Source of the DNA: Acidobacteriota bacterium
GTDB taxonomy: Bacteria; Acidobacteriota; Terriglobia; Acidiferrales; UBA7541
DNA length: 52,183 bases
Direction of reading: 5' to 3'
Assembly: GCA_003223255.1 (NCBI GenBank)
Contig: QHYJ01000036.1
Span: forward strand, 6,205-58,387
Each line of letters begins with the position of its first letter. Within the stretch, counting starts at the first letter, position 1. A program made the position numbers and the translations under genes. This document shows positions 2,271-15,495 of the stretch, in pieces. The notes beneath the pieces were generated by a model that did not search any database, was not told the DNA's origin, and saw only the letters and a program-made list of their open reading frames with translations.

Positions 2271-3305
2271 CTAATAGAGGCTCGAGGAATGACGCCTGAG
2301 CAGTAGCCGCTCGCCGCGCATGTCCTCGCCGCGCAGTTCCCGCAGCGCATAGGTCGCGAATTCTGCAGTCACGCGCTTGCGCCAGGTCATGTCGAAATCG
2401 GTGTTGTCCAGCGGCTTGGCAATGCGCGCGGCGAGGGTTGCTGCTTCCGCGATCGAATCCTGACTCAAGGGGCGTCCCCTAAGGGACTTTGAAGCTTCTG
2501 CAGCCAAAAGCGGCAGGCACGCCACAGAGCCCACCACAATGCGAGCGTCCTCGACTACGCCATTCGCGGATATTCTCGCCGCTGCGGCGACCGACAAAAC
2601 CGGAAAATCGAAAGAGCCGCGGCGGCGCAGCTTCCAGTACGTGCTCTTCCAGCCATGCGAAGAATCCAGGATCACTTGAGTGAGCAGCTCATTCGGCTGC
2701 CGCTTGATGTAGTGGATTCCGTCATTTTGATAAAGTTCGGTGAGCGGAACTTCCCGCTCCCCCGAACGCGAAGCCAAGCGAACGCGTGCGCCAAGAGCCA
2801 TCAACGCCGGCGCGGTATCTGTCGAAGAGACGGCCATGCATTTTGGGCTGCCCGGAGCGACCCAGCAGGTATCGCCATCTTTTTTCAGACAAAAGCCAAT
2901 GGATTTTCGCCACTCGTAGTTTTGGTCGTAATAATTACAACGCGTGTCAAGACAGAGATTTCCGCCGAGCGTCGCCATATTGCGGATTTGTGGCGTGGCG
3001 ACACAGGAAGCGGCTTGCGCAAGCGCCGTCAGACCGTTTCGAAAACACGGGTCGGCTGCGATTTCAGAGAGTGTGGTGCAGGCGCCCAGGCGTGTGCCCG
3101 CATCACTGAGGTCGATCTGATGCAATTCCGGAATGCGATTCAGGCTCATCAAAGTCTTGGGGACCTGCTGCCGGCGCTTCATGTTTGGCAGCAGATCCGT
3201 GCCACCAGCGAGAGGCATCGCCTGGGAACCTTCGCCGTCCAGAATGCGCGCGGCCTCCGCAAGGGTCTGAGGAGCGCGAAACTCGAATAATGGCAGGCGC
3301 ATCAT
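2271..3305 (-). CDS. hcrB: 4-hydroxybenzoyl-CoA reductase beta subunit (FAD and [4Fe-4S])
   Basis: The 344-residue protein is the FAD subunit of a molybdenum hydroxylase. The FAD-binding motifs PLAGGTDLLPNM (31-42) and TLGGNLCLDTRC (112-123) are clear. After the second motif comes an insertion with Cys123, Cys139, Cys147 and Cys156. This is the spacing of the four cysteines that hold the extra [4Fe-4S] cluster in Thauera 4-hydroxybenzoyl-CoA reductase and is absent from ordinary xanthine dehydrogenases. That makes a low-potential, ferredoxin-driven dehydroxylase the best call. The ATG overlaps the hcrA stop; a second ATG follows directly and could also serve. Substrate is inferred, not shown. 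Confidence 0.82.
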   Translation of the reverse strand: MMRLPLFEFRAPQTLAEAARILDGEGSQAMPLAGGTDLLPNMKRRQQVPKTLMSLNRIPELHQIDLSDAGTRLGACTTLSEIAADPCFRNGLTALAQAASCVATPQIRNMATLGGNLCLDTRCNYYDQNYEWRKSIGFCLKKDGDTCWVAPGSPKCMAVSSTDTAPALMALGARVRLASRSGEREVPLTELYQNDGIHYIKRQPNELLTQVILDSSHGWKSTYWKLRRRGSFDFPVLSVAAAARISANGVVEDARIVVGSVACLPLLAAEASKSLRGRPLSQDSIAEAATLAARIAKPLDNTDFDMTWRKRVTAEFATYALRELRGEDMRGERLLLRRHSSSLY

Positions 3306-5815
3306 GGCGCAAGTACCTTTTCTTTCATGGCGCGCGGCTTCTCGCGATGCACATCGTTTATCGCGTTGCCGTCGCCGCCTTCCCACGGTGGTGGAACGCG
3401 CAGAGCCTCCGGCCAATGCACATGCGGAAAATGATCGGGCCCATAGCGCGGGTTGCGGCCTGCTTTTTTCTCCGCGAGCGCCTTCATGATTTTATCCGGG
3501 GTGATAGGCACTTCGTCGATGCGCACGCCCACCGCGTCATAAACCGCGTTGGCGACTGCCGGCATGATGGGCAGCAGAGGGCCCTGCCCTACTTCCTTCG
3601 CGCCGAAAGGACCGCGCGGATCGGGATCTTCAACCAGCTCCGTGACCACTTCCGGCATGTCCAGCGAGGTCGGGCTCTTGTATTCGAGAAGCGACGGGAA
3701 CTTGTGCACCAGCGCATGCGAAAGGCGCTTCGGTAAACGGCGGAACTCCTGCTCTTCCATCAGCGCTTCGCCGAGCCCCATATACACACTGCCCTCCACT
3801 TGGCCTCGCACCAGCGTCGGGTTGAGCGCCCGACCGATGTCATGGGCAATCCACACCTTGGGGACGTGCACCCAGCCGGTCGCGGAATGCACTTCGACTT
3901 CGACAACAGCCGCCGAATAGGAATAGGTCGGCGACGGTCCTACGCCGCCGCCTTTGTAGAGAGCGGGCGATTTCGGCGGAGTGTACGAGCCGACCGTGCC
4001 GATGGTTCCGAAGCGCGCTTCTGCGAGGCTAATCGCTTCCGCGAAACTGACTCCTTTCTCCGGCGCGGCGGAATCGAATATGCGCTTGTCGGCAAAACGC
4101 AGTCTCTCTTTCGGCAAATCCAATTTCAACGCAACGGCTTCGGCAAGCAGCGCTTTTCCGCGTTCCGCCGCCTGCAGTGCGGCATTTCCTGCCATCAACG
4201 TCACGCGGCTGGAATAGGAGCCCAAATCCACGGGACCAAGATCCGTGTCGCCAGTGAACAAGCGTACATCAAACGGGTCGATGCCAAGAACTTCGGCAAC
4301 GATGCTCGCCAAAACGTCGTCAGAGCCTTGGCCGATTTCTGTCGCGCCGCAGAAAATGCTCACTCCGCCGCCGCGATCGAATTTCAGTTGCACGCCGGAG
4401 TGCGGCATCTTGTTCCAGTAAATGGGCAATCCAGCTCCCGTTAGATAAGCCGAGCAAGCGATTCCCACGCCGCGCCCTTCGGGAAGCTTGCGGAATTTGT
4501 TCTTCCAGTCGGAAGCTTTCACAACCCGGCGGATGCACTCGGTGAGATTCACCGTGCCCAGCCTCAAGAAATTGGCGGTCACCGTGTTTGGAGCTTCTAC
4601 AATTCGCAAGCGCAAGTCCCCAGGATCAAGCTGGAGTTTTTCGGCGATCTTGTCGAGCTGCACTTCCTGCCCGAACCGTGGTTGCGGCGTGCCGTGCCCG
4701 CGCTTCGGGCCGCACGGCGGCTTGTTGGTGAATGTGCGGCAGCCCTCGTAGCGATACCGTGGAATGTGGTACGTCGTTGTCTGAAGCGCGCCCGCATAAT
4801 AAGTGCTCGCCACTCCGTACGAACCATACGCGCCGCCGTCGATCAGCGTTTGCAGGTGTACGCCGGTAATCGTGCCGTTTTTCTTAACCCCGGTTTTGAA
4901 TTTCATCAGCACCGGATGGCGACCGCGGTGGCAATAGAAAACTTCTTCGCGCGTGAGGCAGATTTTGACCGGGCGATCGAGCAGCAGCGCGGCTTTCGCA
5001 ACCACAATCTCGTGATTGAACGGATCGCTCTTGCCCCCAAACCCGCCGCCATTCGGCGTGGCAATTACGCGAATGTGCGCGGGCGGCATTTCGAGCACTT
5101 TCGCCAAGGCGCGATGCAGATAGTGCGGCGTTTGCGTGCTCGACCAAATCGTCAGCTTGCCGTCGGGATCCTTGATCGCCACCGAGGCGTGCTGCTCGAT
5201 GGGAAGATGCGTGTTGCCCTGATAAAAGAAAGTGTCCTCGAAGATCTCATCCGCTTCGGCAAATCCTTGTTCCACGTTTCCAAATTCCAGTGCTACTTGC
5301 TTGTGAATGTTGCCTTCCTCGCCGTATTCGTGGATGCGTGGCTCGGGAGTCGCCAGCGCTTCTTTGGGATTGGAGATGGTCGGAAGAATTTCGTAGTCCA
5401 CGTCGATCAAATCCAGAGCTTCGCACGCCGTCAATTCTTCCCTGGCCACGACTGCGGCAACCGGATCACCCACATGCCGCACGTGATCGACGCAAAGGGC
5501 CTGCTCGTCCTGACTGACAGGCAAGATGCCGTACTGAATCGGGAGGTCCTTTCCGGTGAGCATCAAATAGACGCCCGGGTGTGCCAGCGCGCGCAAAGCA
5601 TCGATTTTCCGGATACGTGCGTGAGGATGCGGCGAGCGCAGAAGTTTGCAATGCGCAATGCGGGGCAGGAAGATGTCGTCGGCAAAGCGCGTCTGCCCGG
5701 TCACTTTTGCGCGGCCGTCGACGCGTCGGCGCGGCACGCCGATGACCCGCAATCCTTCGCGATTCGAGAGGGAATCCGTGACGGGTGATTTAGACTTTTC
5801 TTCTGGATCTGACAT
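3302..5815 (-). CDS. hcrA: 4-hydroxybenzoyl-CoA reductase alpha subunit (molybdopterin)
   Basis: The 837-residue protein is the catalytic Mo-cofactor subunit of the xanthine oxidase family. Visible signatures are VDGRAKVTGQTRFADDI near the start, TPNGGGFGGKSDP, FTNKPPCGPKRGHGTPQPRF, EIGQGSDDVLASIVAEVLG and RGPFGAKEVGQGP, where Glu741 is the likely active-site glutamate. The PPCGPKRGHG string is as I remember it from HcrA/HbaC proteins. A C-terminal tail of about 55 residues, rich in His, Trp and Pro, goes beyond the usual end. A GAGAGG lies four bases before the ATG. The stop overlaps hcrB (ATGA), so the subunits are coupled. Confidence 0.85.
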   Translation of the reverse strand: MSDPEEKSKSPVTDSLSNREGLRVIGVPRRRVDGRAKVTGQTRFADDIFLPRIAHCKLLRSPHPHARIRKIDALRALAHPGVYLMLTGKDLPIQYGILPVSQDEQALCVDHVRHVGDPVAAVVAREELTACEALDLIDVDYEILPTISNPKEALATPEPRIHEYGEEGNIHKQVALEFGNVEQGFAEADEIFEDTFFYQGNTHLPIEQHASVAIKDPDGKLTIWSSTQTPHYLHRALAKVLEMPPAHIRVIATPNGGGFGGKSDPFNHEIVVAKAALLLDRPVKICLTREEVFYCHRGRHPVLMKFKTGVKKNGTITGVHLQTLIDGGAYGSYGVASTYYAGALQTTTYHIPRYRYEGCRTFTNKPPCGPKRGHGTPQPRFGQEVQLDKIAEKLQLDPGDLRLRIVEAPNTVTANFLRLGTVNLTECIRRVVKASDWKNKFRKLPEGRGVGIACSAYLTGAGLPIYWNKMPHSGVQLKFDRGGGVSIFCGATEIGQGSDDVLASIVAEVLGIDPFDVRLFTGDTDLGPVDLGSYSSRVTLMAGNAALQAAERGKALLAEAVALKLDLPKERLRFADKRIFDSAAPEKGVSFAEAISLAEARFGTIGTVGSYTPPKSPALYKGGGVGPSPTYSYSAAVVEVEVHSATGWVHVPKVWIAHDIGRALNPTLVRGQVEGSVYMGLGEALMEEQEFRRLPKRLSHALVHKFPSLLEYKSPTSLDMPEVVTELVEDPDPRGPFGAKEVGQGPLLPIMPAVANAVYDAVGVRIDEVPITPDKIMKALAEKKAGRNPRYGPDHFPHVHWPEALRVPPPWEGGDGNAINDVHREKPRAMKEKVLAP

Positions 5816-5888
5816 CTAGCCTCTCAGCGCGCGCTCTCACGCAGCACGGCTCCGAAATCTCAGCAACACGTTGAAAAGCGCATTTGGT

Positions 5889-5982
5889 TGTCATCTCGAG
5901 CGAAGCACGCTCTTTGCGCTCCGGACGTTTTTGCGGAGCGAGGGATGTGCTTTTCGCAAAGCTCAAGGCAAAGCAGATTCCT
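5889..5982. repeat. Interspersed hairpin repeat, copy 1
   Basis: The 200-base gap between hcrC and hcrA holds an element that begins TGTCATCTCGAGCGAAGC and ends AAAGCAGATTCC. Inside is a perfect 7-bp inverted repeat, CGCTCCG (5917-5923) with CGGAGCG (5934-5940). The same terminal words and hairpin core recur near 38840, 45660 and 52081. It may act as an mRNA processing or stability element between hcrC and hcrA. Confidence 0.6.
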
Positions 5983-6016
5983 AATCGAGACGACCGCCTT
6001 GCAACTCGACAAGCGC

Positions 6017-6532
6017 TCAGGGCGCGCCCTCCTCTTTTTCTGCCATCCTGACCATAGCCGCTTCCACAGCTTCGAAGATCTGCAGATATCCCGTGCAGCG
6101 GCAAAGATTCCCCGAGAGCGCTTCCCGAATTTGATCCCGCGACGGATGCGGATTCGCATCGAGCAACGCTTTGGCCGTCACTAAAATACCCGGCGTGCAG
6201 TAGCCGCATTGCGCCGCACCGAGGTCCGCGAAGGTGTCTTGCAGCGGATGGAGTCGTCCATCGACGGAAAGCCCCTCGACAGTCAGGACTTGTCGTCCGC
6301 GGCATTCGAGTGCTAGCACGAGGCAGGAGAGCACCGGCTTGCCATCCAAAAGAACCGCACAGGCGCCACATTCTCCCAACTCACAACCATGCTTCGTCCC
6401 GGTGTGGCCGAGATCCTCGCGCAAGACTTCCAGGAGCGTCTTATACGGCGCGAAAGAAACGTCAACTTCTTCGCCATTCAGCGCGAACCGGATCTGTGCC
6501 GTCTTTTGTGATTCAATCGGAAGCGTCGCCAC
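6017..6532 (-). CDS. hcrC: 4-hydroxybenzoyl-CoA reductase gamma subunit (two [2Fe-2S])
   Basis: The 171-residue protein is the small iron-sulfur subunit of the molybdenum reductase. A plant-type [2Fe-2S] domain has Cys50, Cys55, Cys58 and Cys70 (CELGECGAC, then LSC). The C-terminal helical domain has Cys109, Cys112, Cys144 and Cys146 (CGYC and CRC). All eight ligands are present and the length is normal. It precedes hcrA by 201 nt, and that gap contains a repeat. Small subunits of CO and xanthine dehydrogenases look alike, so the specific name rests on the neighbouring hcrA and hcrB. Confidence 0.85.
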   Translation of the reverse strand: MATLPIESQKTAQIRFALNGEEVDVSFAPYKTLLEVLREDLGHTGTKHGCELGECGACAVLLDGKPVLSCLVLALECRGRQVLTVEGLSVDGRLHPLQDTFADLGAAQCGYCTPGILVTAKALLDANPHPSRDQIREALSGNLCRCTGYLQIFEAVEAAMVRMAEKEEGAP

Positions 6533-6553
6533 TTGTCATCACCCTTCGAACGG

Positions 6554-7270
6554 CTATCCAACGGTCACACGTTTTCCTGCGTCTTCGGTAACCTGTCTGC
6601 GTACGACCAGCGGCGTTTTTCTTCCGCTGGCTAACCGCCCGAGAGAGTCTGCCGTCGCCAGCAAGCCGCGAATTAGATATTCCGCCAATTTTTCCGCAAT
6701 TTCTTCAGCCCTCATTGGCCCATCCGGGCGAAACCACTGCACGCTCCAATTCAGCGCCCCAAGCATCGCCCGCGCAACCAGCGCCGCATCTCCGGAGACG
6801 AATTCACCGGTCCGCATCCCCGAGGCAATCAGATTCCGTACGCCCAGTTCATAGCGGTCGCGTTTGGCAACCAGGTAACGTTGCTGCCGCAGTGGCAAAG
6901 CATTCGTCAACAGATGCGCGGCCGAACCCTCGACTTCGTCGAGCAAGCAGCGCAAATGAGAAACGATCACTTGCCGCAATCTGGCAGCGGCGCTGGTCTT
7001 CGCGCAGCGCACCTTCTCCAGCGCCGCGATCAGGCGATCCAACGAACTGTCCTGGCAGAAAAAGAGAATCTCACTTTTGCCCTGGAAGTAGTTGTACAGG
7101 TTGGCGGGGGAGACTTGCGCGGCCTCCGCAATATCACGCATGCCCGTCTCCACAATGCCGCGAGAACGGAATTGCCGCCCCGCCGCGCGCAAGATTTCCA
7201 GGCGCCGAGCCTGATAACGGCGACGCTGGCGCCCGTTACGTGAGGTCCCGGACTGTTGTTCGGATGCCAC
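6554..7270 (-). CDS. TetR family transcriptional regulator
   Basis: The 238-residue protein has an N-terminal TetR helix-turn-helix at about residues 24-70, including FRSRGIVETGMRDIAEAAQV and SPANLYNYFQGKSEIL. A longer helical ligand-binding domain follows. The Arg-rich N-terminus is unusually basic. It lies 21 nt before hcrC on the same strand, so it probably controls the reductase genes or its own transcript, perhaps by sensing an aromatic acyl-CoA (inference). Two palindromes of the kind TetR dimers bind lie just upstream at 7352-7386. Confidence 0.88.
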   Translation of the reverse strand: MASEQQSGTSRNGRQRRRYQARRLEILRAAGRQFRSRGIVETGMRDIAEAAQVSPANLYNYFQGKSEILFFCQDSSLDRLIAALEKVRCAKTSAAARLRQVIVSHLRCLLDEVEGSAAHLLTNALPLRQQRYLVAKRDRYELGVRNLIASGMRTGEFVSGDAALVARAMLGALNWSVQWFRPDGPMRAEEIAEKLAEYLIRGLLATADSLGRLASGRKTPLVVRRQVTEDAGKRVTVG

Positions 7271-7341
7271 TTTCTTCTCGGGGGAAGAGTCTTTTCCCTT
7301 AAGCTGCCCCCTATCGAAAGTGTCTTCCTTTTTCTTGCTTG

Positions 7342-7386
7342 TGTCAATGCGTTCTGAACATCTGTTCAGAATACGAACACCTGTTC
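7342..7386 (-). promoter_or_regulatory. Twin palindromic operator and -35 box upstream of tetR
   Basis: A perfect 9-bp inverted repeat TTCTGAACA-TC-TGTTCAGAA occupies 7352-7371. A second site, GAACA-CC-TGTTC, occupies 7375-7386. Their centres are 19 bp apart. Directly beside them on the minus strand is TTGACA (7347-7342), a consensus -35 reading toward tetR; the -10 match is weak. Paired palindromes next to the promoter of a tetR gene are a common autoregulatory layout. That this TetR binds them is an inference. Confidence 0.6.
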
Positions 7387-7447
7387 ACTTCGAGTGCAAA
7401 AAATGGCCTTTGTGCACGACCGACGGGAATACACGTTGCCCGGGAGG

Positions 7448-8752
7448 TTACAAACGTCTGTCCAGCCGCTGGAAGCGGCGCGCCTTCATTTCGAATCGCG
7501 CCAGCGCCCCGGGTTGCGCCACAGTAACGGTGGGCCGCAGCGAAAGCGCCCGATAGATAGCCTGTTCTACGTGCAAGCGCACTTGCTCTCGATCATTGCC
7601 AGAAGTCACTTCGATCTGTACTTCGAGATCATGCATTGCCTCCACCGTTTTCACCATGATTTGAAATTCGTCGACCGCCGGGAACTGACGAATGACATTT
7701 TCGATGGCCGTGGGATAAACATTCACGCCGCGAATCGTCACCATATCGTCGCTGCGGCCAAGCAACCCGCCATCAAAGCGCGCCAAGGTGCGCCCACAAG
7801 CGCATGGGCTTAGGTTCAACTTAACCAGATCGCCGGTGCGATAGCGAATTACGGGAAATCCGGGCCGCCCCAGGTTGGTGATCACCAACTCTCCGGTTTC
7901 GCCCGGTTCCATTTCTTTGCCTGTCTGAGGATCAATCACTTCGGGGATGAACTCGCTTTCGATGACATGAATCCCCTTGGGCTGCCGTTCGCATTCGAAA
8001 CTGTATGCGCCCACTTCGGAAGCGCCGGCGTGATCGAAACACTTCGCATTCCACTCCGATTCGATTCGCGCTTTGGTTTGCGCGACGTTCGCTCCGGGCT
8101 CCCCAGCATGGATGAGCGTGCGGAGGGGGATGGATCGCAGGTCAAACTTTTGCTCGCGCGCAATTTGCGCTAGCCGCAGCGCGTAAGTCGGCGTGCAGCA
8201 GACCACCGTTGCTCCGAGATCGCGCATCATGTGGAGCCGTTGCAACGAATCCCATCCACCGCCGGGAATCATCATCGCCCCCAGCTGTCTCGCTCCTTCC
8301 ACGGCGGCCCAGAACCCAATGAAGGGGCCAAACGAGAACGGCAGAAATACCCTATCGTTTTTCGTAACTCCCGCTCCGCGCAGCACGTGTCCCCAGCATC
8401 TCCCCCACCACTCCCAACTCTCCGGGGTGTCCACCACGCGCAAAGGAGCGCCTGTGGTTCCGGAGGTCTGATGCACGCGTGAGTAGGCTTCCGGCGGAAA
8501 AGTCGCATTCGTTCCGAAGGGCGGCGCTTCCTCCTGGGCGCGCACTAACTCGGATTTTTCCGTGTACGGGAGTTTGCGCAGGTCGGACAGTGCCTTTATG
8601 TTTTCGGGAACGATGCCCGCATCTCGCCATTTCTTTGTATAGAAACGGTTGTAGCCGCAGACCACGCGGAGCAATTCGTGCAGTTTTTGCCACTGCACCT
8701 CGCGCCGTTGCTCGCGCGACGCTCTCTCCATCGGCTGGTCGCAGGTCATCAT
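7448..8752 (-). CDS. PaaK-type aryl/phenylacetate-CoA ligase
   Basis: The 434-residue enzyme is an AMP-forming acyl-CoA ligase of the phenylacetate-CoA ligase family. It has the phosphate-binding loop QTSGTTGAPL (Ser97 to Gly101), the YRTGD adenylation motif, GRSDDMVTIRGVNVYP before the C-terminal domain and a late lysine in EMKARRF that fits the adenylation lysine. The likely reaction is aromatic acid + ATP + CoA to aryl-CoA in the cytoplasm. Its place between boxB-side and hcr genes makes benzoate, 4-hydroxybenzoate or a related acid the likely substrate; this is inference. Classical BclA and HbaA ligases belong to a different subgroup of longer proteins. Confidence 0.8.
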   Translation of the reverse strand: MMTCDQPMERASREQRREVQWQKLHELLRVVCGYNRFYTKKWRDAGIVPENIKALSDLRKLPYTEKSELVRAQEEAPPFGTNATFPPEAYSRVHQTSGTTGAPLRVVDTPESWEWWGRCWGHVLRGAGVTKNDRVFLPFSFGPFIGFWAAVEGARQLGAMMIPGGGWDSLQRLHMMRDLGATVVCCTPTYALRLAQIAREQKFDLRSIPLRTLIHAGEPGANVAQTKARIESEWNAKCFDHAGASEVGAYSFECERQPKGIHVIESEFIPEVIDPQTGKEMEPGETGELVITNLGRPGFPVIRYRTGDLVKLNLSPCACGRTLARFDGGLLGRSDDMVTIRGVNVYPTAIENVIRQFPAVDEFQIMVKTVEAMHDLEVQIEVTSGNDREQVRLHVEQAIYRALSLRPTVTVAQPGALARFEMKARRFQRLDRRL

Positions 8753-8819
8753 GGCCTATGCAAATCTTACGGTCTTCCGAGTCGTATGATTTAGACTAGC
8801 AAAGCAGGCTCGATCCGTT

Positions 8820-9668
8820 TCACTTCGGGAACAGCCGCGCCGCATTGTCGTACAGGATTTTTCGCTTCGCTGCTTCTCCAATCGGCAGCGCCTTGAATTT
8901 CTCGATGTTCCCTTTGATCTCGGGGACGCCGGGTCCTGGCCAGTCCATACCCCACAAAACTTTATCCGCAACATCCTCGATGCGCGGAAAATATTCCAGC
9001 AATTTTTGCGGCGGGATGCCGGAAATGTCCATGTACATATTCTTGTGGCGGCGCACGAGAAAAAATGCTTCATTCATCCACAGCGGCCTTCCTCCGTGCG
9101 CGAGGATGACCACAAGATTCGGGTAATCGACGCCGAGGTCGTCGCAAAGCAGCGGCTGTGCGTGCAAATTTCGCGCTCCGGGGAAAATAGAAGTTCCGGT
9201 GTGGATCATAATTGGCAGCCCATTCGCTTGCGCACGCTCGTAGATGACGGCGAGGCCGCGATTTCCATCCAAGTAGGCGTTGGGCGAGAGCACTTGATGC
9301 GAAGGGTGCATCTTGATGGCGCGAATGCCGAGTTTGGCAAGGCGGTCCACTTCCGTGCCGGGATCGGGCACGGTTCCAGGAAGAACGCCTCCGAACGCAA
9401 TGAGCCGGTCCGGCGCCACGCTGCAGTACTTTGCGCTCCAGTCATTCACTTCGGGTGTGAAGCCGATAATCTTCGGCGCGACGTAGTTGATCAGTCCCGC
9501 GCGTTCGATTCCCAAAGTGTCGAGAAATGCCAGGAACGCTTTTGAATCCGTGCTATAGCGTTCGACATCCGGATAGTCTCGGCGGCCTTTTTTGATCAGC
9601 TCCAGGGCAAACGGCTTCATCATGTGATAGGGCATGATGTGGATGTGGATGTCGATGATCGGTTGCAC
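8820..9668 (-). CDS. Amidohydrolase family protein (ACMSD/decarboxylase-like)
   Basis: The 282-residue protein has the TIM-barrel metal motifs of the amidohydrolase-2 group: an HxH at His8/His10 (IDIHIHIMP), MHPSHQ, MIHTGTS, LAHGG and a late WGMDWPGPG with the metal-binding Asp. Related enzymes hydrolyse or decarboxylate aromatic and ring-opened compounds. It lies 44 nt after boxB and 67 nt before the ligase, so a step in aromatic acid breakdown is likely. One option is making a benzoate from a dicarboxylated or hydroxylated precursor. The exact substrate cannot be read from the sequence. Confidence 0.72.
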   Translation of the reverse strand: MQPIIDIHIHIMPYHMMKPFALELIKKGRRDYPDVERYSTDSKAFLAFLDTLGIERAGLINYVAPKIIGFTPEVNDWSAKYCSVAPDRLIAFGGVLPGTVPDPGTEVDRLAKLGIRAIKMHPSHQVLSPNAYLDGNRGLAVIYERAQANGLPIMIHTGTSIFPGARNLHAQPLLCDDLGVDYPNLVVILAHGGRPLWMNEAFFLVRRHKNMYMDISGIPPQKLLEYFPRIEDVADKVLWGMDWPGPGVPEIKGNIEKFKALPIGEAAKRKILYDNAARLFPK

Positions 9669-9712
9669 AGGACTCCACCGCTGAGCCGGAGAACTTCGTA
9701 TTTTCGCGCCTA

Positions 9713-11137
9713 TCAGTTGAAACGAACGTATTCGAAATTCAGCCGCTTATTGTTGATGCCACGCAGAGGCGGCGCAATCCAATTCGCGAACTTCCCTGGC
9801 TCGGTCACGCGACCGGTCATGAGAGATTGCACGAAGCCATAGTCTTTTGGGCCAGGCAGCCATTCGAATTCGTGCTGCTTCCAGGCTTCTTCGGTCAGCA
9901 CTTCGCCTTCGGGGCTAATGAAGTGGCCGGCGAAGTTCCCGATCGCGCGATGAAAGCCTTTGTGGGGCAAGCTCAGGCGAAAAGCGATCCCAGTTTCATC
10001 GATGACGCGCTGCCAGCGGCTAACGCCGTCCGCGATCTCATCGATGTAGTCGTCGCGCAGCCGTTCATTCAGTGCCGTCAATGCCGGAACCTTCTTGGTC
10101 ACGATTTTCCCGCCTAGGACTTCGGAGACCGGATAAGACGCATCGATAAGCACGTGATCGTCATCGAGCTTCGTTTCGCGGAAGCGGCCTTTCAATCCGC
10201 TGGTGAAGTAATTCGCAGCGTTTGAGGAAACATCGGAACCGTAAAGGTCGAGCGTCACGCTGTAGTGGAAATTCAAGTACTTCTGAATTGTTTGCAGGTC
10301 GATGACTCCGAGCGCCCGCACCTCGGATGGATCTTCGACTTTGTTTTCTTTCATCACCTCGCAGGTTCGCTGAATAATCCGCCCTACGCCTGTCTCGCCC
10401 ACGAACATGTGGTGGGCTTCCTCGGTCAGCATGAAGCGGCAGGTGCGGGCAAGGGGATCAAAGCCGGATTCCGCGAGCGCGCAAAGCTGGAATTTTCCAT
10501 CACGATCGGTAAAGAACGTGAACATGTAAAACGCCAGCCAGTCCGGCGTCGGCTCATTGAACGCGCCCAGAATGCGCGGATTGTCGGTATCGCCGGAGCG
10601 GCGCGCCAGCAAAGCTTCGGCTTCTTCGCGGCCATCGCGCCCGAAGTAGCGATGCAGCAGGTAGACCATAGCCCACAGATGGCGGCCTTCCTCCACATTC
10701 ACCTGAAAAATGTTGCGCAGGTCATACAACGACGGACAGGAAAGTCCCAGCATCTTCTGCTGCTCCACCGAAGCCGGCTCCGTATCGCCTTGCGTCACGA
10801 TGATGCGGCGCAGTGTCGAGCGGTATTCGCCAGGCACTTCTTGCCACGCCGGCTGGCCCTTGTGCGTGCCAAAATTCACTTGCCGTTGCTCATCGCGCGG
10901 CTGCAGGAAAATTCCCCAGCGATATTCCGGCATCTTGACGTAATCGAAATGCGCCCAGCCGTCAGGCTCCACGCTGACCGCTGTACGCAGGTACACATCG
11001 TAGTTGCGGCTCTCGGTGGGCCCCATGTCGTACCACCAGCCGAGAAACGCGGGCTGCCAATGCTCCAGCGCGCGCTGCAAGACGCGATCTCGTCCCAAAT
11101 CCACGTTGTTTGGGATTTTTTCCGTGTAATTGATCAT
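9713..11137 (-). CDS. boxB: Benzoyl-CoA 2,3-epoxidase, oxygenase component
   Basis: The 474-residue protein is the diiron oxygenase that turns benzoyl-CoA into the 2,3-epoxide with O2. The N-terminus (YTEKIPNNVDLGRDRVLQRA), the WWYDMGP string and the full length match BoxB. Candidate iron ligands fall where they lie in characterised BoxB: Glu120, Glu150 and His153 (NVEEGRH), Asp211, Glu240 and His243 (LTEEAHH). BoxB needs electrons from the reductase BoxA, which is not encoded here. It is 33 nt downstream of boxC and is almost certainly cotranscribed with it. Confidence 0.95.
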   Translation of the reverse strand: MINYTEKIPNNVDLGRDRVLQRALEHWQPAFLGWWYDMGPTESRNYDVYLRTAVSVEPDGWAHFDYVKMPEYRWGIFLQPRDEQRQVNFGTHKGQPAWQEVPGEYRSTLRRIIVTQGDTEPASVEQQKMLGLSCPSLYDLRNIFQVNVEEGRHLWAMVYLLHRYFGRDGREEAEALLARRSGDTDNPRILGAFNEPTPDWLAFYMFTFFTDRDGKFQLCALAESGFDPLARTCRFMLTEEAHHMFVGETGVGRIIQRTCEVMKENKVEDPSEVRALGVIDLQTIQKYLNFHYSVTLDLYGSDVSSNAANYFTSGLKGRFRETKLDDDHVLIDASYPVSEVLGGKIVTKKVPALTALNERLRDDYIDEIADGVSRWQRVIDETGIAFRLSLPHKGFHRAIGNFAGHFISPEGEVLTEEAWKQHEFEWLPGPKDYGFVQSLMTGRVTEPGKFANWIAPPLRGINNKRLNFEYVRFN

Positions 11138-11170
11138 GACTGCCCCTCAGTTCTCTCCGAAATCCTTCGA

Positions 11171-12853
11171 TTAGACTTTTTCCCAGTCGAATTTCACCGG
11201 CGCGCCCGTGCCATACACCTTTAACGCCCCACTTTGGCCAACGGCGTTCGGGCGGATGAAGATCCAGTTTTGCCAGGCGGAAAGCCGTCCGAAGATGCGC
11301 GTTTCCGGTGTTTCGCTGGGCCCGAACCGCAAGTTCGCCTCGAGGCCGGTAAGCGCATCCGGGGATTGCGCCGCGCGCGATTCAAGGGCCTGGCGAATTT
11401 CGTCCTCCCAATCGAGGTCATCGGGCGCAGAGGTGACGAGCCCGGCTTCGAGCGCTTCGCGCGCGGAAAGTTTCTTGCCAATCTGCTGATGAAGCGACTC
11501 GATGGTGCTTTTGTCCCCGTAGAAACGCGCGGCCAGCCGCGAAAGGCGATTCACCATCGGCAGCGGCCCGAAGTTCATTTCCGACAGCGTCATCGTGGCT
11601 ACGCTGTCGACTTCTTCGGTGTCCCGAATATAAATGCGGTCCGCCGCCAGGGCCAGCTCGACCAACGTACCCGCGAAACAAGAGCCCGACTCGGTGATGG
11701 CATAAATCGAGCGCGACGTCACTTCCAGCCGCGCGAAGGTTCGCCGCATCATTCCCAGCACTTCGCGCACGAACCAATTGTCCTGATGACTTAGGAGAAA
11801 CTTATCCAGGGCAAGAACGGCATCCGGATTCCCGGCCGTTTTCATGACCCACAGGCCCAATTCCAGTTCGTTGGTCCGAAGGCTGAGGATGGCGTCATCG
11901 AGTTCGCGCGCCATTTGTAGCGGCCACCAATTCGCTGCTGCCGCAAGAGCCTTCTCGACGGTTTGTTCGCCAACCGATTCCGGCGCTCTCACCGTAATAG
12001 TCGCGGTGCGCGCTGCCCGGTTGAACTGCACATCCAAATATTCGTAATGCAGGCCTGAGTCGTCCGACACTTTCTTCAATGGCGTCAGCGATATCCCCTT
12101 TGCCCCCACGGGCCGATCGGACAATTCGGCCAGCTTTAGCGCGCGCTGCTTGACGTGTTCCGCAAACTGCTGCGGCTTGACGATCTCATCCACAAGGCGC
12201 CAATCCTTTGCTCGCTGCCCCCGTACACCGTCCTGGCTGGTGCAAAACGTATCGGCAAGGTCTTTGCGGACTTTTCTCTTGTCGGTGAGGCGCGTCAGCC
12301 CGCCGGTTCCGGGGAGGACGCCGAGCAGAGGAAGCTCGGGCAGGCTTACGGCGGACGAGCGGTCGTCGACCAGGATAATTTCGTCGCAGGCCAGTGCCAG
12401 CTCGTACCCGCCGCCCGCGGTCGTTCCGTTGCAGGCGGCAAGAAACTTCAGCCCCGAATTCCGGCTCGAATCCTCGATGCCAATCCGCGTTTCATTGGTG
12501 AATTTGCAGAAATTCACTTTCCAGGCATGCGAGGAGAGCCCCAGCATGTAAATGTTGGCGCCAGAGCAAAAAATGCGGTTCTTCGCACTGGCAAAAACGA
12601 CGCAGCGAACCTCAGGATGCTCAAATCGAATGCGCTGCAAGGCGTCCTGGAGTTCGATGTCCACGCCCAGGTCGTAAGAATTGAGTTTCAGCTTGTAGCC
12701 AGGACGAATTCCGCCATCTTCCGCCACGTCCATGGTGAGCGTCGCCACCGGGCCATCGAAAGAAAGCCGCCAATGCTTGTAGCGCGAAGGCTCGGTCTGA
12801 TAGTCCACTGCCGCTGGTCTCGTCTTCACCTCTTGAGTCACCGCTGCGTCCAC
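11171..12853 (-). CDS. boxC: 2,3-epoxybenzoyl-CoA dihydrolase (ring opening)
   Basis: The 560-residue protein contains two crotonase-like halves, as BoxC does. The first carries RCVVFASAKNRIFCSGANIY and AACNGTTAGGGYELALACDE, the second carries ITESGSCFAGTLVELALAAD. The enzyme opens the epoxide ring with two waters and releases formate, giving 3,4-dehydroadipyl-CoA semialdehyde. The C-terminal WQNWIFIRPNAVG and GALKVYGTG strings are also typical. It starts 9 nt after the boxR stop and precedes boxB, the order commonly seen in box clusters. Confidence 0.95.
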   Translation of the reverse strand: MDAAVTQEVKTRPAAVDYQTEPSRYKHWRLSFDGPVATLTMDVAEDGGIRPGYKLKLNSYDLGVDIELQDALQRIRFEHPEVRCVVFASAKNRIFCSGANIYMLGLSSHAWKVNFCKFTNETRIGIEDSSRNSGLKFLAACNGTTAGGGYELALACDEIILVDDRSSAVSLPELPLLGVLPGTGGLTRLTDKRKVRKDLADTFCTSQDGVRGQRAKDWRLVDEIVKPQQFAEHVKQRALKLAELSDRPVGAKGISLTPLKKVSDDSGLHYEYLDVQFNRAARTATITVRAPESVGEQTVEKALAAAANWWPLQMARELDDAILSLRTNELELGLWVMKTAGNPDAVLALDKFLLSHQDNWFVREVLGMMRRTFARLEVTSRSIYAITESGSCFAGTLVELALAADRIYIRDTEEVDSVATMTLSEMNFGPLPMVNRLSRLAARFYGDKSTIESLHQQIGKKLSAREALEAGLVTSAPDDLDWEDEIRQALESRAAQSPDALTGLEANLRFGPSETPETRIFGRLSAWQNWIFIRPNAVGQSGALKVYGTGAPVKFDWEKV

Positions 12854-12862
12854 GCCATCCTC

Positions 12863-13714
12863 CTATTGCAAATTCGCTTGTAGCGTCGCCTTCAATTTCG
12901 CAAAGCTCTCCTCCACCGAACTTCCGGAAGTGTCCAAAACCAGGTCCGCTTTCCGGTAAAGCGGCTCGCGGGCTTCCAATATCCGCCGCAAATCTTCCAT
13001 CGCCTGATCGTTTGCCTCCATGGGACGAAAATCGCCCTGCGCCATAACGCGCGACATGTGCTCTTCCGGTTGCGCCTTGAGCCAAACGGTGTAGCAGTGA
13101 GAGAGGAGATCGTCGAAAGTTTCCTTTTCAGAGACCAGCCCGCCTCCCACAGAGATCACGGCTCGCTCGTTTTCTTTTAATACTTTCTCCAGCGTGCGCT
13201 TCTCAATCGCGCGAAATCCGGATTGCCCATAGAGAGAAAAAATTTCGCCAAGCGGCATTCCAGTATCTTTTTCAATCTCGCTATCCAACTCAACGAAGCG
13301 GTTGTTGGTTTCCGCGGCCAGCTTCGCTCCCAAGGTGGACTTGCCCGCGCCGCGCATGCCGATCAAGGCGATGCGCATCCGGCGCCCCTTTTCTTCGTGG
13401 CCAAAGTCGCGCATCAACCGGAATACGAGGTCTTCCAAACGGTGCCGCGGCAAGCGCTCCAGAAATCTTTGGATTAATCTTCTCTCGGTCGGCTCGTCGA
13501 TCTGCGGCGCAAACATTCCTTCGCCCGCTTCCAGTTGCGCGAGATGGCGCTCGGACACGTCGGCCTCTTGCGATACTTGCTTGCGCGTCAGGCCGCGGCG
13601 GTTTCGCAACTCGCGGACGCGCTTCCCTAGGGCCATCAGAAAATCGCCATTTTCGGAGCCTTGGGCCGGTTGTAGAGTAGAGGCCTTGGATTGCGTTGTG
13701 GTAGGAGGTGCCAT
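12863..13714 (-). CDS. boxR: BoxR/BzdR-type regulator, XRE HTH fused to shikimate-kinase-like domain
   Basis: The 283-residue protein fuses an XRE-type DNA-binding domain (LGKRVRELRNRRGLTRKQV, then SERHLAQLEAGEG) to a shikimate-kinase-like domain with the P-loop GMRGAGKSTLGAKLA. Later motifs are ISVGGGLVSE, VMAQGDFRP and EDLRRILEAREPLY. In BzdR and BoxR the kinase-like domain senses benzoyl-CoA and relieves repression. Here the HTH is short: after LEAGEG the expected last helices (usually about 20-25 residues starting NxSI) are missing and the linker DEPTERRLIQRFLERLP follows at once. The ATG at 13714 is preferred because an upstream in-frame ATG at 13741 lies inside the promoter. It heads the box genes. 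Confidence 0.85.
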   Translation of the reverse strand: MAPPTTTQSKASTLQPAQGSENGDFLMALGKRVRELRNRRGLTRKQVSQEADVSERHLAQLEAGEGMFAPQIDEPTERRLIQRFLERLPRHRLEDLVFRLMRDFGHEEKGRRMRIALIGMRGAGKSTLGAKLAAETNNRFVELDSEIEKDTGMPLGEIFSLYGQSGFRAIEKRTLEKVLKENERAVISVGGGLVSEKETFDDLLSHCYTVWLKAQPEEHMSRVMAQGDFRPMEANDQAMEDLRRILEAREPLYRKADLVLDTSGSSVEESFAKLKATLQANLQ

Positions 13715-13736
13715 GAATTCAGCAGGATAGCTCAGC

Positions 13737-13794
13737 TGCATTATAGTACAAGGATAGGGATGCAGGTCAACACGAGAAAAGGTACTTTTGTGCA
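13737..13794 (-). promoter_or_regulatory. boxR promoter with repeated TGCA operator-like sites
   Basis: On the minus strand a TTGACC (-35) and a perfect TATAAT (-10, plus positions 13740-13745) are separated by 19 nt. TGCA tetramers sit at 13737-13740 just after the -10, at 13761-13764 directly after the -35, and at 13791-13794 upstream. A fourth is at 13914-13917 toward boxD. Operators of Azoarcus BzdR are described as containing repeated TGCA, so self-repression by the adjacent regulator is plausible. Binding is inferred. Confidence 0.55.
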
Positions 13795-13961
13795 GAGGCT
13801 ACGTGAAATACATCACATCGGAGAGTTAGGGCTAAGTCTTTATTGCCCAAAGATATAAGGAAAAGAGACTCTTATCCACTGGAAGATTGAAGTGGAAATT
13901 GTTCAGTCGGATATGCATTATTGTGCTGACAAGCGATCTCGGTTCCTGAGGAGGTCTTCCC

Positions 13962-15495
13962 ATGAAACTGGCAAACTATGTGGCTGACAAATGGGTCGAA
14001 GGATCGGGCCCTGGCACACCCCTGGTTGATCCCGTGACCGGGGACGAGCTGGCGCGCATTTCTTCTGGTGGCGCGGACCTCAAAGCCGCGCTAGATTTCG
14101 CCAGGACGCAAGGCGGACCGGCCCTGCGCCAGCTTACTTACGGGCTGCGCGGATGAGTACTTCCGTCTCTCCCTTCTGAATCTCGGCGCAACGCAGGCGG
14201 ATGCCTCCTTCGACGTCGACGGAGCGCTCTACACCATGAAATATTACGCGAAGATTGGCCGCGCCCTCGCCGAAGGGGAAATGTTGAAGGAAGGGGCAGC
14301 GCTATCTTTGTCGAAGACGGGTGTTTTCGGCGCGCAGCATTTTCTTTCGCCCGCGAAAGGCGTGGCGGTTTTCATTAACGCCTTCAACTTCCCCGCGTGG
14401 GGTTTCTGCGAAAAGGCCGCGCCCGCGTTTCTCTCGGGAGTTCCCGTGCTCGTGAAGCCCGCTTCTCCAACGGCGTGGCTCGCACACCGGATGGTGGAAG
14501 ACGTGGTGAAGTCCGGCATCCTGCCGTCGGGCTCCATTTCGCTTGTTTGTGGTTCCGCTCGCGAACTGCTCGATCACGTTCGCGAAGAAGACATTGTTTC
14601 TTTCACCGGTTCCGCGGACACTGCCGCGCGCGTGCGCTCGCATTCCAACGTGCTGCATCGCTCCGTGCGCGTGAACATCGAGGCCGACAGCATCAATTCC
14701 GCTATCCTCGGACCGGATGGCGCGCCAGCATCCGACCTCTTCGAACTGCTTGTTAAGGAAGTTCTGAAGGAAGTGTCCATAAAAGCGGGCCAGAAATGCA
14801 CGACCATCCGGCGGATTTTCGCCCCGCGCCGGATCCTCAAAGCTTTCGCCGAAGCAGCGTCTTCCCGCTTGAGCACGATGAAAGTGGGAAACCCACGCAA
14901 TGCGGAAGTAAGAGTCGGGCCGGTGGTGAACAAGGCTCAGCAAACTGCGTGCCTCGAAGGGCTCAAGAAATTGCGTTCCGAATGCTCCGTCGTATTTGGC
15001 GGCAACGACCACTTCCAACCGGTGGATGCCGACCCGCAAAAATCCGCGTTTGTTCAGCCCACGCTTCTCTCGAGCAACGACGGCCTGGCTTCGAAATATG
15101 TTCACGATGTTGAAGTATTCGGCCCGGTCATGACCCTGATTCCTTACGACAGCGCGAAGGATCTCATTCCTATGGTTCGGCGCGGGAGCGGTTCGCTGGT
15201 GGCCTCGGTCTTTTCGAACGATCCTGCCTTCTTACGGGAGGTTGTTCTTGGCATCGGCGATCTGCATGGGCGAATCGTGGCGGTGGACTCTACGGTGGGG
15301 AGCCAGCACACGGGGCACGGCAACGTGGTGCCCAGTTGCCTCCATGGCGGTCCCGGGAGAGCGGGCGGAGGCGAAGAACTTGCCGGCCTGCGAGCGCTCT
15401 TGCTCTATCATCGCCGATTTGTCGTGCAGGGACCGGTGAACTACCTCAAGGATTTGTCCGCCTCGTGCGTCGACACGAATTTGCTTTACGCGTAG
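13962..15495 (+). pseudogene. boxD: 3,4-dehydroadipyl-CoA semialdehyde dehydrogenase, interrupted
   Basis: Two reading frames together make a BoxD-type aldehyde dehydrogenase. The first (13962-14156) starts MKLANYVADKWVEGSGPGTP and stops after RQLTYGLRG. The second resumes at about 14154 with DEYFRLSLLNLGATQADASF and runs to 15495. It carries the catalytic Glu (VNIEADSINSAIL) and Cys (GQKCTTIRRIF). Between them, about 20 codons present in relatives are missing and the frame changes, so no full protein can be made as the sequence stands. GAGGAGG before the ATG supports the start. The rest of the gene is free of stops, which fits a recent lesion or an assembly error. BoxD would oxidise the ring-opened semialdehyde with NADP+. 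Confidence 0.85.

Follow-up and report, generated by a model that had tools for sequence, protein, structure and literature searches.

Anaerobic catabolism is known to strip ring hydroxyls reductively from aryl-CoA thioesters, and the closest described enzyme to the one considered here is the 4-hydroxybenzoyl-CoA reductase (4-HBCR) HcrABC of Thauera aromatica (PDB 1rm6, 1sb3). The box pathway of Azoarcus/Aromatoleum and Burkholderia, by comparison, has an epoxidase gene, boxB, together with boxC and a boxR with a divergent boxD. The window analysed here, a stretch of 52,183 nucleotides from an Acidobacteriota bacterium (contig QHYJ01000036.1 of assembly GCA_003223255.1), resembles both systems. 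Its hcrCAB-like genes encode three subunits, with a molybdopterin subunit of the xanthine oxidase (XO) family and an FAD subunit that bears extra [4Fe-4S] cysteines, and they share a cluster with boxB, boxC, boxR and a divergent boxD. The window Hcr is, to judge from sequence comparison, related to 4-HBCR but is not an ordinary or known one, and it might feed an oxygen-dependent ring-opening pathway.

There are also significant differences from the described systems. Unlike the Thauera enzyme, the window Hcr lies in a separate clade, has Gln in place of Glu726 and scores under the TIGR03194 and TIGR03195 cut-offs; unlike the Thauera system, its host has neither a PF06050 nor a PF02730 match and carries oxidases. 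Compared with the Azoarcus/Aromatoleum and Burkholderia box loci, the window is without BoxA, has hcr genes and an amidohydrolase gene after boxB, and has a boxD that is interrupted in this assembly. The arrangement of boxR with a divergent boxD has been described for Betaproteobacteria (PMC6449761, available excerpt). Bins of one SAR324 group also contain BoxB, BoxC and a 4-hydroxybenzoyl-CoA reductase, with BoxD not found there, but the available excerpt states no linkage of hcr and box genes, and its authors take the reductase to contribute to 4-hydroxybenzoate production (PMC4782131). Ucdh of Enterocloster bolteae is likewise an XO-family reductive dehydroxylase, with 4-HBCR as its closest characterised relative; unlike the window enzyme it comes from a gut bacterium, takes NADH as donor and acts on a non-CoA substrate (PMC12771579, available excerpt). 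Searches of open-access literature, judged by titles and the starts of abstracts, listed no paper on a single hcr and box cluster or on a Gln-type HCR, which falls short of proving that none exists.

The original prediction had identified hcrCAB with the enzyme known from anaerobic degraders, and this has to be corrected. Among enzymes with a PDB entry, which are the only ones this comparison covers, HcrA matches Thauera 1rm6 first (596 bits; next match 258), as does HcrB (1rm6_B, 186 bits; next match 110), with the insert cysteines aligned, and HcrC matches 4zoh best and 1rm6_C only fourth, so that it is not decisive for the family. Both HcrA (794.3 vs 994.55 bits, TIGR03194) and HcrB (264.9 vs 404.55 bits, TIGR03195) remain under the curated equivalog cut-offs. 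Of 100 loci, drawn from both clades, 96 show the four-cysteine [4Fe-4S] pattern in their best HcrB reading; the remaining four are fragments or were read in a wrong frame. In an HcrA tree of 50 rows, with paralogue reading frames picked by best phmmer hit, the window protein falls in a 31-row clade sister to the 11-row clade holding Thauera, and the named sequences closest to it come from acidobacteria (Gp2/Acidiferrales). Both clades, Gln-type and classical, are supported at 100/99; the branch separating them from the paralogues reaches 91/78, under the tool's star level, with one named classical sequence in the tree. A xanthine- or nicotinate-type member of the XO family, for which the original prediction had proposed a phylogenetic check, is rejected, since HcrA and HcrB match 4-HBCR best and the tree, at the 91/78 support just given, sets HcrA apart from the XO-family paralogues of its own genome. 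The window enzyme thus belongs to a sister clade of the classical one, in which Gln has taken the place of the catalytic Glu. An AlphaFold model of HcrA (predicted local distance difference test score, pLDDT, 41) was left unused. In a first HcrA tree, in which the paralogues L003 and L006 were misframed, the HcrA of loci titled Cyanobacteria or Acidimicrobiia (L112, L115, L116) nests with the Acidobacteria-titled L111 and L113, and these may be misnamed bins.

Replacement of the catalytic Glu is clade-wide. The column of Thauera position 726 holds Gln in 80 of 80 distinct aligned clade rows (Gln744 in the window). Of the 11 classical rows, 10 carry Glu there and one is cut off, and 8 of 8 paralogues have Glu as well; these counts required an HcrA reading of >700 aa, omitted the near-duplicate or short loci L098-L102, L114, L119, L124, L130, L144 and L160, and took in only some same-genus loci. 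The motif is ungapped, GPFGAKEVGQG, with Gln, vs GPFGAKEASEG, with Glu, and a pattern scan over the called open reading frames, duplicates kept, gives 86 Gln and 9 Glu. Among the PDB chains with an aligned row available at this site, Glu is present in 1rm6, 3hrd, 5g5h, 5g5g and 8uem. Column by column the clades differ at many positions, with 726 as the standout. Outside this site the molybdopterin subunit shows strong conservation, many positions being common to classical HCR and not to the paralogues. Because the defining catalytic Glu was looked for and is absent, the window Hcr is not classed as a 4-HBCR. Most likely it works like one.

This enzyme type recurs beside box genes. In a set of 61 genomes, comprising the window's own (G000) and 60 relatives, BoxB is over its cut-off in 31, 19 of which carry Gln-type hcrA, and 16 of the 31 have both genes on the same contig with at most 15 kb between them. 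In G011 and G025 the contig with the box genes breaks off directly behind hcrC, and another contig opens with hcrA; in G012 the Gln-type hcrA and boxB are on separate contigs, without such a break. The residue was read in 20 of the 22 Gln-type genomes of this set (19 by motif, G047 by alignment) and in 9 of the 10 Glu-type genomes (G041 is cut off). Of the 13 same-genus loci with both gene sets, 12 carry a labelled amidohydrolase gene and 12 have tetR beside hcr. The CoA ligase, which the original prediction counted as part of the cluster, adjoins hcr in the window but is of the PaaK type and occurs in only 5 of these 13 loci. Two genomes of another family, G049 and G057, have a different order, with one gene between hcrB and hcrA; in G049 (L063:7856-8869) this is a beta-hydroxyaspartate-dehydratase-like PLP-enzyme gene, and the G057 gene at the matching place (L064:7307-8287) begins like it by eye. 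On the HcrA tree, box adjacency requires four changes (5-95% of bootstrap trees: 4-4), and the box-adjacent lineages are Acidiferrales, the G049/G057 family, the Planctomycetes contig L154 and the Gammaproteobacteria contig L125 (~8 kb apart). Because of these four changes, adjacency of hcr and box genes probably arose more than once in the history that the tree depicts. A same-genus locus, L053 (G009:C7), has Glu-type hcrA near boxC/boxB on one contig, with PF06050 elsewhere, and is an apparent mixed case.

The association extends across the phylum. In a sample of 297 acidobacterial genomes, boxB (E <=1e-100) was found in 50 and hcrA (profile, E <=1e-220) in 62. With the Gln type defined as a score of >=1040 bits against the clade profile, this type is present in 28 of the 50 boxB genomes vs 20 of the 247 others (odds ratio 14.4, p 1.8e-13); by genus, the figures are 21 of 31 vs 15 of 136 (p 3.4e-10). 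Without a score threshold, hcrA is present in 29 of 50 boxB genomes vs 33 of 247 others (odds ratio 9.0), and the thresholds tried, 0, 1040, 1140 and 1300 bits, give genome-level odds ratios of 9.0, 14.4, 13.3 and 16.6. Direct reading of the residue covers 21 of the 62 hcrA genomes (13 Gln, 8 Glu), and the type is assumed for the rest. Twenty of those read are further phylum genomes, 12 with Gln and a high clade-profile score and 8 with Glu and a low one; all read Gln genomes score at least 1339 bits except G061 (1227) and G083, which has its match in two parts, their sum being the score entered in the association test, and all read Glu genomes score at most 1021. Lower-scoring Glu-type hcrA does not track boxB, which accompanies it in 1 of 14 genomes (G084); these 14, 8 of them residue-read, are only those reaching E <=1e-220 against the Gln-type profile. 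Ten boxB genomes without hcrA belong to one genus (g91). The co-occurrence of hcr and box genes in relatives, which the original prediction had made a condition of its own validity, is therefore found both at the level of linked clusters and as a phylum-wide association.

The genomic context fits an oxygen-respiring organism. The window's genome, which is 97.3% complete, has four COX1 matches (one short), i.e., haem-copper oxidases, and a benzoate-CoA ligase (G000:C124:25559-27091, 519.6 bits vs cut-off 375). It has no match to PF06050 (the class I benzoyl-CoA reductase family), none to PF02730 (AOR/BamB-type) and none to PobA. Anaerobic ring reduction is rejected as the sink for benzoyl-CoA in this genome because neither reductase family matched, and for the same reason Box is the sole benzoyl-CoA ring-opening route found by these searches. 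Among the relatives, PF06050 occurs in 8 of 10 genomes with Glu-type hcrA vs 4 of 22 with the Gln type (p 0.0015). Roughly, and with exceptions, anaerobic ring reduction accompanies the Glu type, and epoxidation the Gln type.

The box proteins themselves are orthodox in score, as all four exceed their curated cut-offs, the BoxR profile carrying the name 'anaerobic benzoate catabolism transcriptional regulator'. BoxB keeps its residues at the six positions that we take to be its iron ligands. The boxD frame is broken relative to one close relative, L051, by 44 bp missing between 14151 and 14152, and because of this deletion the first ~63 codons (from 13962) lie in a different frame; boxD is open over at least 525 aa in 15 relatives' loci, and the deletion is either a real mutation or an assembly error. 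No BoxA match was obtained in the window's genome at E 0.001, and BoxA is over its cut-off in none of the 61 genomes, including all 31 with BoxB, with weak matches, well below the cut-off, in 21. In the known system BoxA reduces BoxB using NADPH (PMC5489048, available excerpt), and a published survey treats box clusters without BoxA as incomplete (PMC10803450, available excerpt). Because the absence of BoxA spans all 31 boxB genomes of the set, another electron donor for BoxB is likely in these acidobacteria. This absence, the boxD deletion and the non-ordinary Hcr enzyme are what is new here.

The original prediction had placed hcrCAB, a CoA ligase, boxB, boxC, boxD and a BoxR regulator together at 2271-15495, and profile and domain searches find the genes there (Table 1). 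From boxR through boxC, boxB, the amidohydrolase, the ligase, tetR, hcrC and hcrA to hcrB, the genes run down the minus strand from 13741 to 2271, with boxD diverging from boxR on the plus strand. Neighbouring genes from boxR through the ligase are separated by 9 to 67 bases; the ligase-tetR gap is 177 bases and the hcrC-hcrA gap 201 bases, and hcrA and hcrB overlap by 4. Beyond the hcr end of the cluster, ATP-synthase-like genes at 1-2063 were recognised by eye only.

Table 1. Features of the hcr-box locus, in window coordinates
Feature	Position	Strand	Evidence
hcrB-like FAD subunit, four-cysteine [4Fe-4S] insert DTRC...FC...TC...KC	2271..3305	-	TIGR03195 265 bits; 1rm6_B best PDB match
hcrA-like molybdopterin subunit, Gln-type	3302..5815	-	TIGR03194 794 bits; Pfam MoCoBD_1, MoCoBD_2, Ald_Xan_dh_C; 1rm6_A 596 bits; tree
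Codon of Gln744 = Thauera Glu726 column, catalytic Glu of xanthine oxidase family	3584..3586	-	Alignment; codon position computed from the start of the open reading frame
hcrC-like subunit, two [2Fe-2S] cysteine motifs (by eye)	6017..6532	-	PDB matches
TetR-type regulator	6554..7270	-	TetR_N + TetR_C_24
Two palindromes GAACANNTGTTC, candidate tetR operator	7356..7386 (7356-7367, 7375-7386)	.	Upstream of tetR; 2 found vs 0.05 expected
PaaK-type aryl-CoA ligase	7448..8752	-	Profile search
Amidohydrolase-2 protein, fold of non-oxidative aromatic-acid decarboxylases	8820..9668	-	Domain search, structure model
boxB, benzoyl-CoA epoxidase diiron subunit	9713..11137	-	868 bits vs cut-off 499
boxC, 2,3-epoxybenzoyl-CoA dihydrolase	11171..12853	-	910 bits vs cut-off 712
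boxR-type regulator, HTH + shikimate-kinase-like domain	12863..13741	-	353 bits vs cut-off 204
boxD, frame broken by 44-bp deletion at 14151/14152	13962..15495	+	614 bits vs cut-off 444

These features are best read as a hybrid route, in which reductive dehydroxylation of a hydroxybenzoyl-CoA would feed BoxB and BoxC in an oxygen-respiring acidobacterium, a reading that we consider about as likely as not. A hydroxybenzoate, most likely 4-hydroxybenzoate, would be activated to its CoA thioester by a ligase in the cluster or elsewhere. The HcrCAB-like enzyme, as its family, iron-sulfur insert and context suggest, would then strip the ring hydroxyl reductively to give benzoyl-CoA, Gln744 perhaps adapting the molybdenum site for one-way reduction. 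By the families to which they are assigned over curated cut-offs, BoxB would epoxidise benzoyl-CoA with O2, BoxC would open the ring and BoxD would oxidise the resulting aldehyde; because no BoxA was found, another reductase or a ferredoxin should supply the electrons for BoxB. The route from 4-hydroxybenzoate through benzoyl-CoA to Box, as laid out in the original prediction, thus survives in part: co-occurrence, the oxidases and the lack of an anaerobic reductase favour it, while the Gln-type enzyme and a substrate that we infer count on the other side. A broader and more tentative proposal, which we think somewhat less probable than its opposite, is that the Gln type constitutes a second, unrecognised class of aryl-CoA dehydroxylase from the 4-HBCR lineage, operating in oxygen-respiring soil bacteria and feeding BoxB without BoxA, so that benzoyl-CoA reductase would be the partner of the anaerobic Glu class and the epoxidase that of the Gln class. 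The altered enzyme that this soil acidobacterium carries beside genes for oxygen-dependent ring opening suggests a putative aerobic version of aryl-CoA dehydroxylation chemistry. A clade-wide change of a catalytic residue tracks O2-dependent ring opening across a phylum common in soil, and two questions become testable: whether dehydroxylation can run in aerobes, and what the catalytic Glu does in the reductive direction.

Several observations weigh against the hybrid route. The catalytic Glu of the family is described as essential for hydroxylation (PMC10420851, available excerpt), and because it is Gln here, catalysis must differ or be lost. Gln-type hcrA occurs without an over-cut-off BoxB in G044, G047 and G059, and 12 of the 31 boxB genomes have no Gln-type hcrA, two of them (G015, G022) being <75% complete. 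Box genes are in the fetched flanks of only 7 of 80 named clade loci, many of these flanks being short. Across the phylum sample, 20 genomes score as Gln-type without boxB, and hcrA and boxB lie within 15 kb only in the window's genome; where other genomes have both, the two mostly stand on separate contigs, and the single-contig G117 has 3.0 Mb between them. The co-occurrence tests handle relatedness solely by genus grouping. Two genomes of the relatives' set, G008 (cut off) and G025 (hcrA contig not fetched), were typed as Gln by similarity with the residue unread, and four Gln-type relatives, G044, G047, G049 and G057, have PF06050. Finally, tetR-hcrCAB may be an autoregulated unit distinct from the boxR-controlled genes, as the palindromes GAACANNTGTTC lie just upstream of tetR and other Acidiferrales loci repeat one or two copies at this place; no exact copy is found there in the same-genus loci L050, L054, L057 and L060.

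The alternative that fares best is that the Gln-type enzyme acts on another hydroxy-aryl substrate, such as the 2- or 3-isomer of hydroxybenzoyl-CoA or a free phenol, with a product that still ends in benzoyl-CoA in some hosts. We consider it unlikely, yet the strongest of the rivals. A TetR regulator and candidate operator of its own for hcr would fit such a function, as would the hydroxybenzoate-decarboxylase fold of the amidohydrolase and the many clade loci without box genes, which occur in several phyla; the annotated neighbours of clade members away from box, in the few loci available, give no common substrate clue. An XO-family dehydroxylase of a non-CoA phenol has moreover been published in Ucdh (PMC12771579, available excerpt). 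The association with boxB over 297 genomes, however, points to a benzoyl-CoA-linked product.

Two further alternatives are improbable, and about equally so. In the first, Hcr would serve metabolite repair, returning to benzoyl-CoA the hydroxybenzoyl-CoA that arises by rearrangement of the BoxB epoxide. The association with BoxB exceeds that with the neighbouring ligase, as repair would have it, and an epoxide-to-phenol rearrangement has been considered for BoxB, but a high barrier was calculated for it (PMC5489048, available excerpt), and 20 phylum genomes score as Gln-type without boxB. In the second, the Gln enzyme would be an electron-transfer or regulatory relative without molybdenum ring chemistry, perhaps supplying BoxA's electrons. 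The invariant Gln of the clade rows, the lack of an over-cut-off BoxA in every BoxB genome and the conserved iron-sulfur insert of the flavin subunit are all compatible with this role, whereas the molybdopterin subunit is otherwise strongly conserved and shares many positions with classical HCR and not with the paralogues, and the 12 BoxB genomes without the Gln-type enzyme have no over-cut-off BoxA either. That an ordinary HCR stands near box genes by chance has the overall family resemblance to HCR in its favour and is very improbable; chance neighbourhood is rejected because the cluster recurs in relatives, with four adjacency changes, the phylum-wide association and the clade-wide Glu-to-Gln change also against it.

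As for regulation of the box side, BoxR-operator TGCA repeats at the published spacings (1, 6 or 15) are absent from the boxR-boxD gap of the window and present in 4 of 10 relatives' stretches, which are of uneven length. A promoter and terminator scan of the window stayed within the spread of shuffles. The amidohydrolase was modelled with a pLDDT of 89.7, and its closest fold is the uncharacterised BB4693 (Z 27.0, rmsd 3.1, 264 aligned). A second amidohydrolase without a characterised function comes next (Z 23.6), ahead of the decarboxylases for 5-carboxyvanillate (Z 23.5, rmsd 3.1, 266 aligned) and for dihydroxybenzoates (Z about 23). It also adjoins Glu-type hcr without box (G010, G037) and box without hcr (G006). 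It is possible, as a guess, that this protein prepares a hydroxybenzoate by decarboxylation.

A second, different pairing is a separate lead. Classical-clade hcr genes lie near a gene for a ~370-aa BoxB-like diiron protein, ~35% identical to BoxB, in G036, G005, G039, G038 and G041 (L077:2658-17285, L078:5967-17503, L079:6306-14175, L080:4832-14682 and L086:1-8300), the G041 contig being cut inside hcrA. The two BoxB-like proteins scanned score 232 and 240 bits, and the protein keeps the residues at the six BoxB iron-ligand positions, again as we take these to be. Four of the five loci, all but G039, also encode an aldehyde dehydrogenase and an enoyl-CoA hydratase of one domain; the same amidohydrolase as in the window is present in all but G041, and G036 has a gene of the CoA-transferase family between hcr and the BoxB-like gene.

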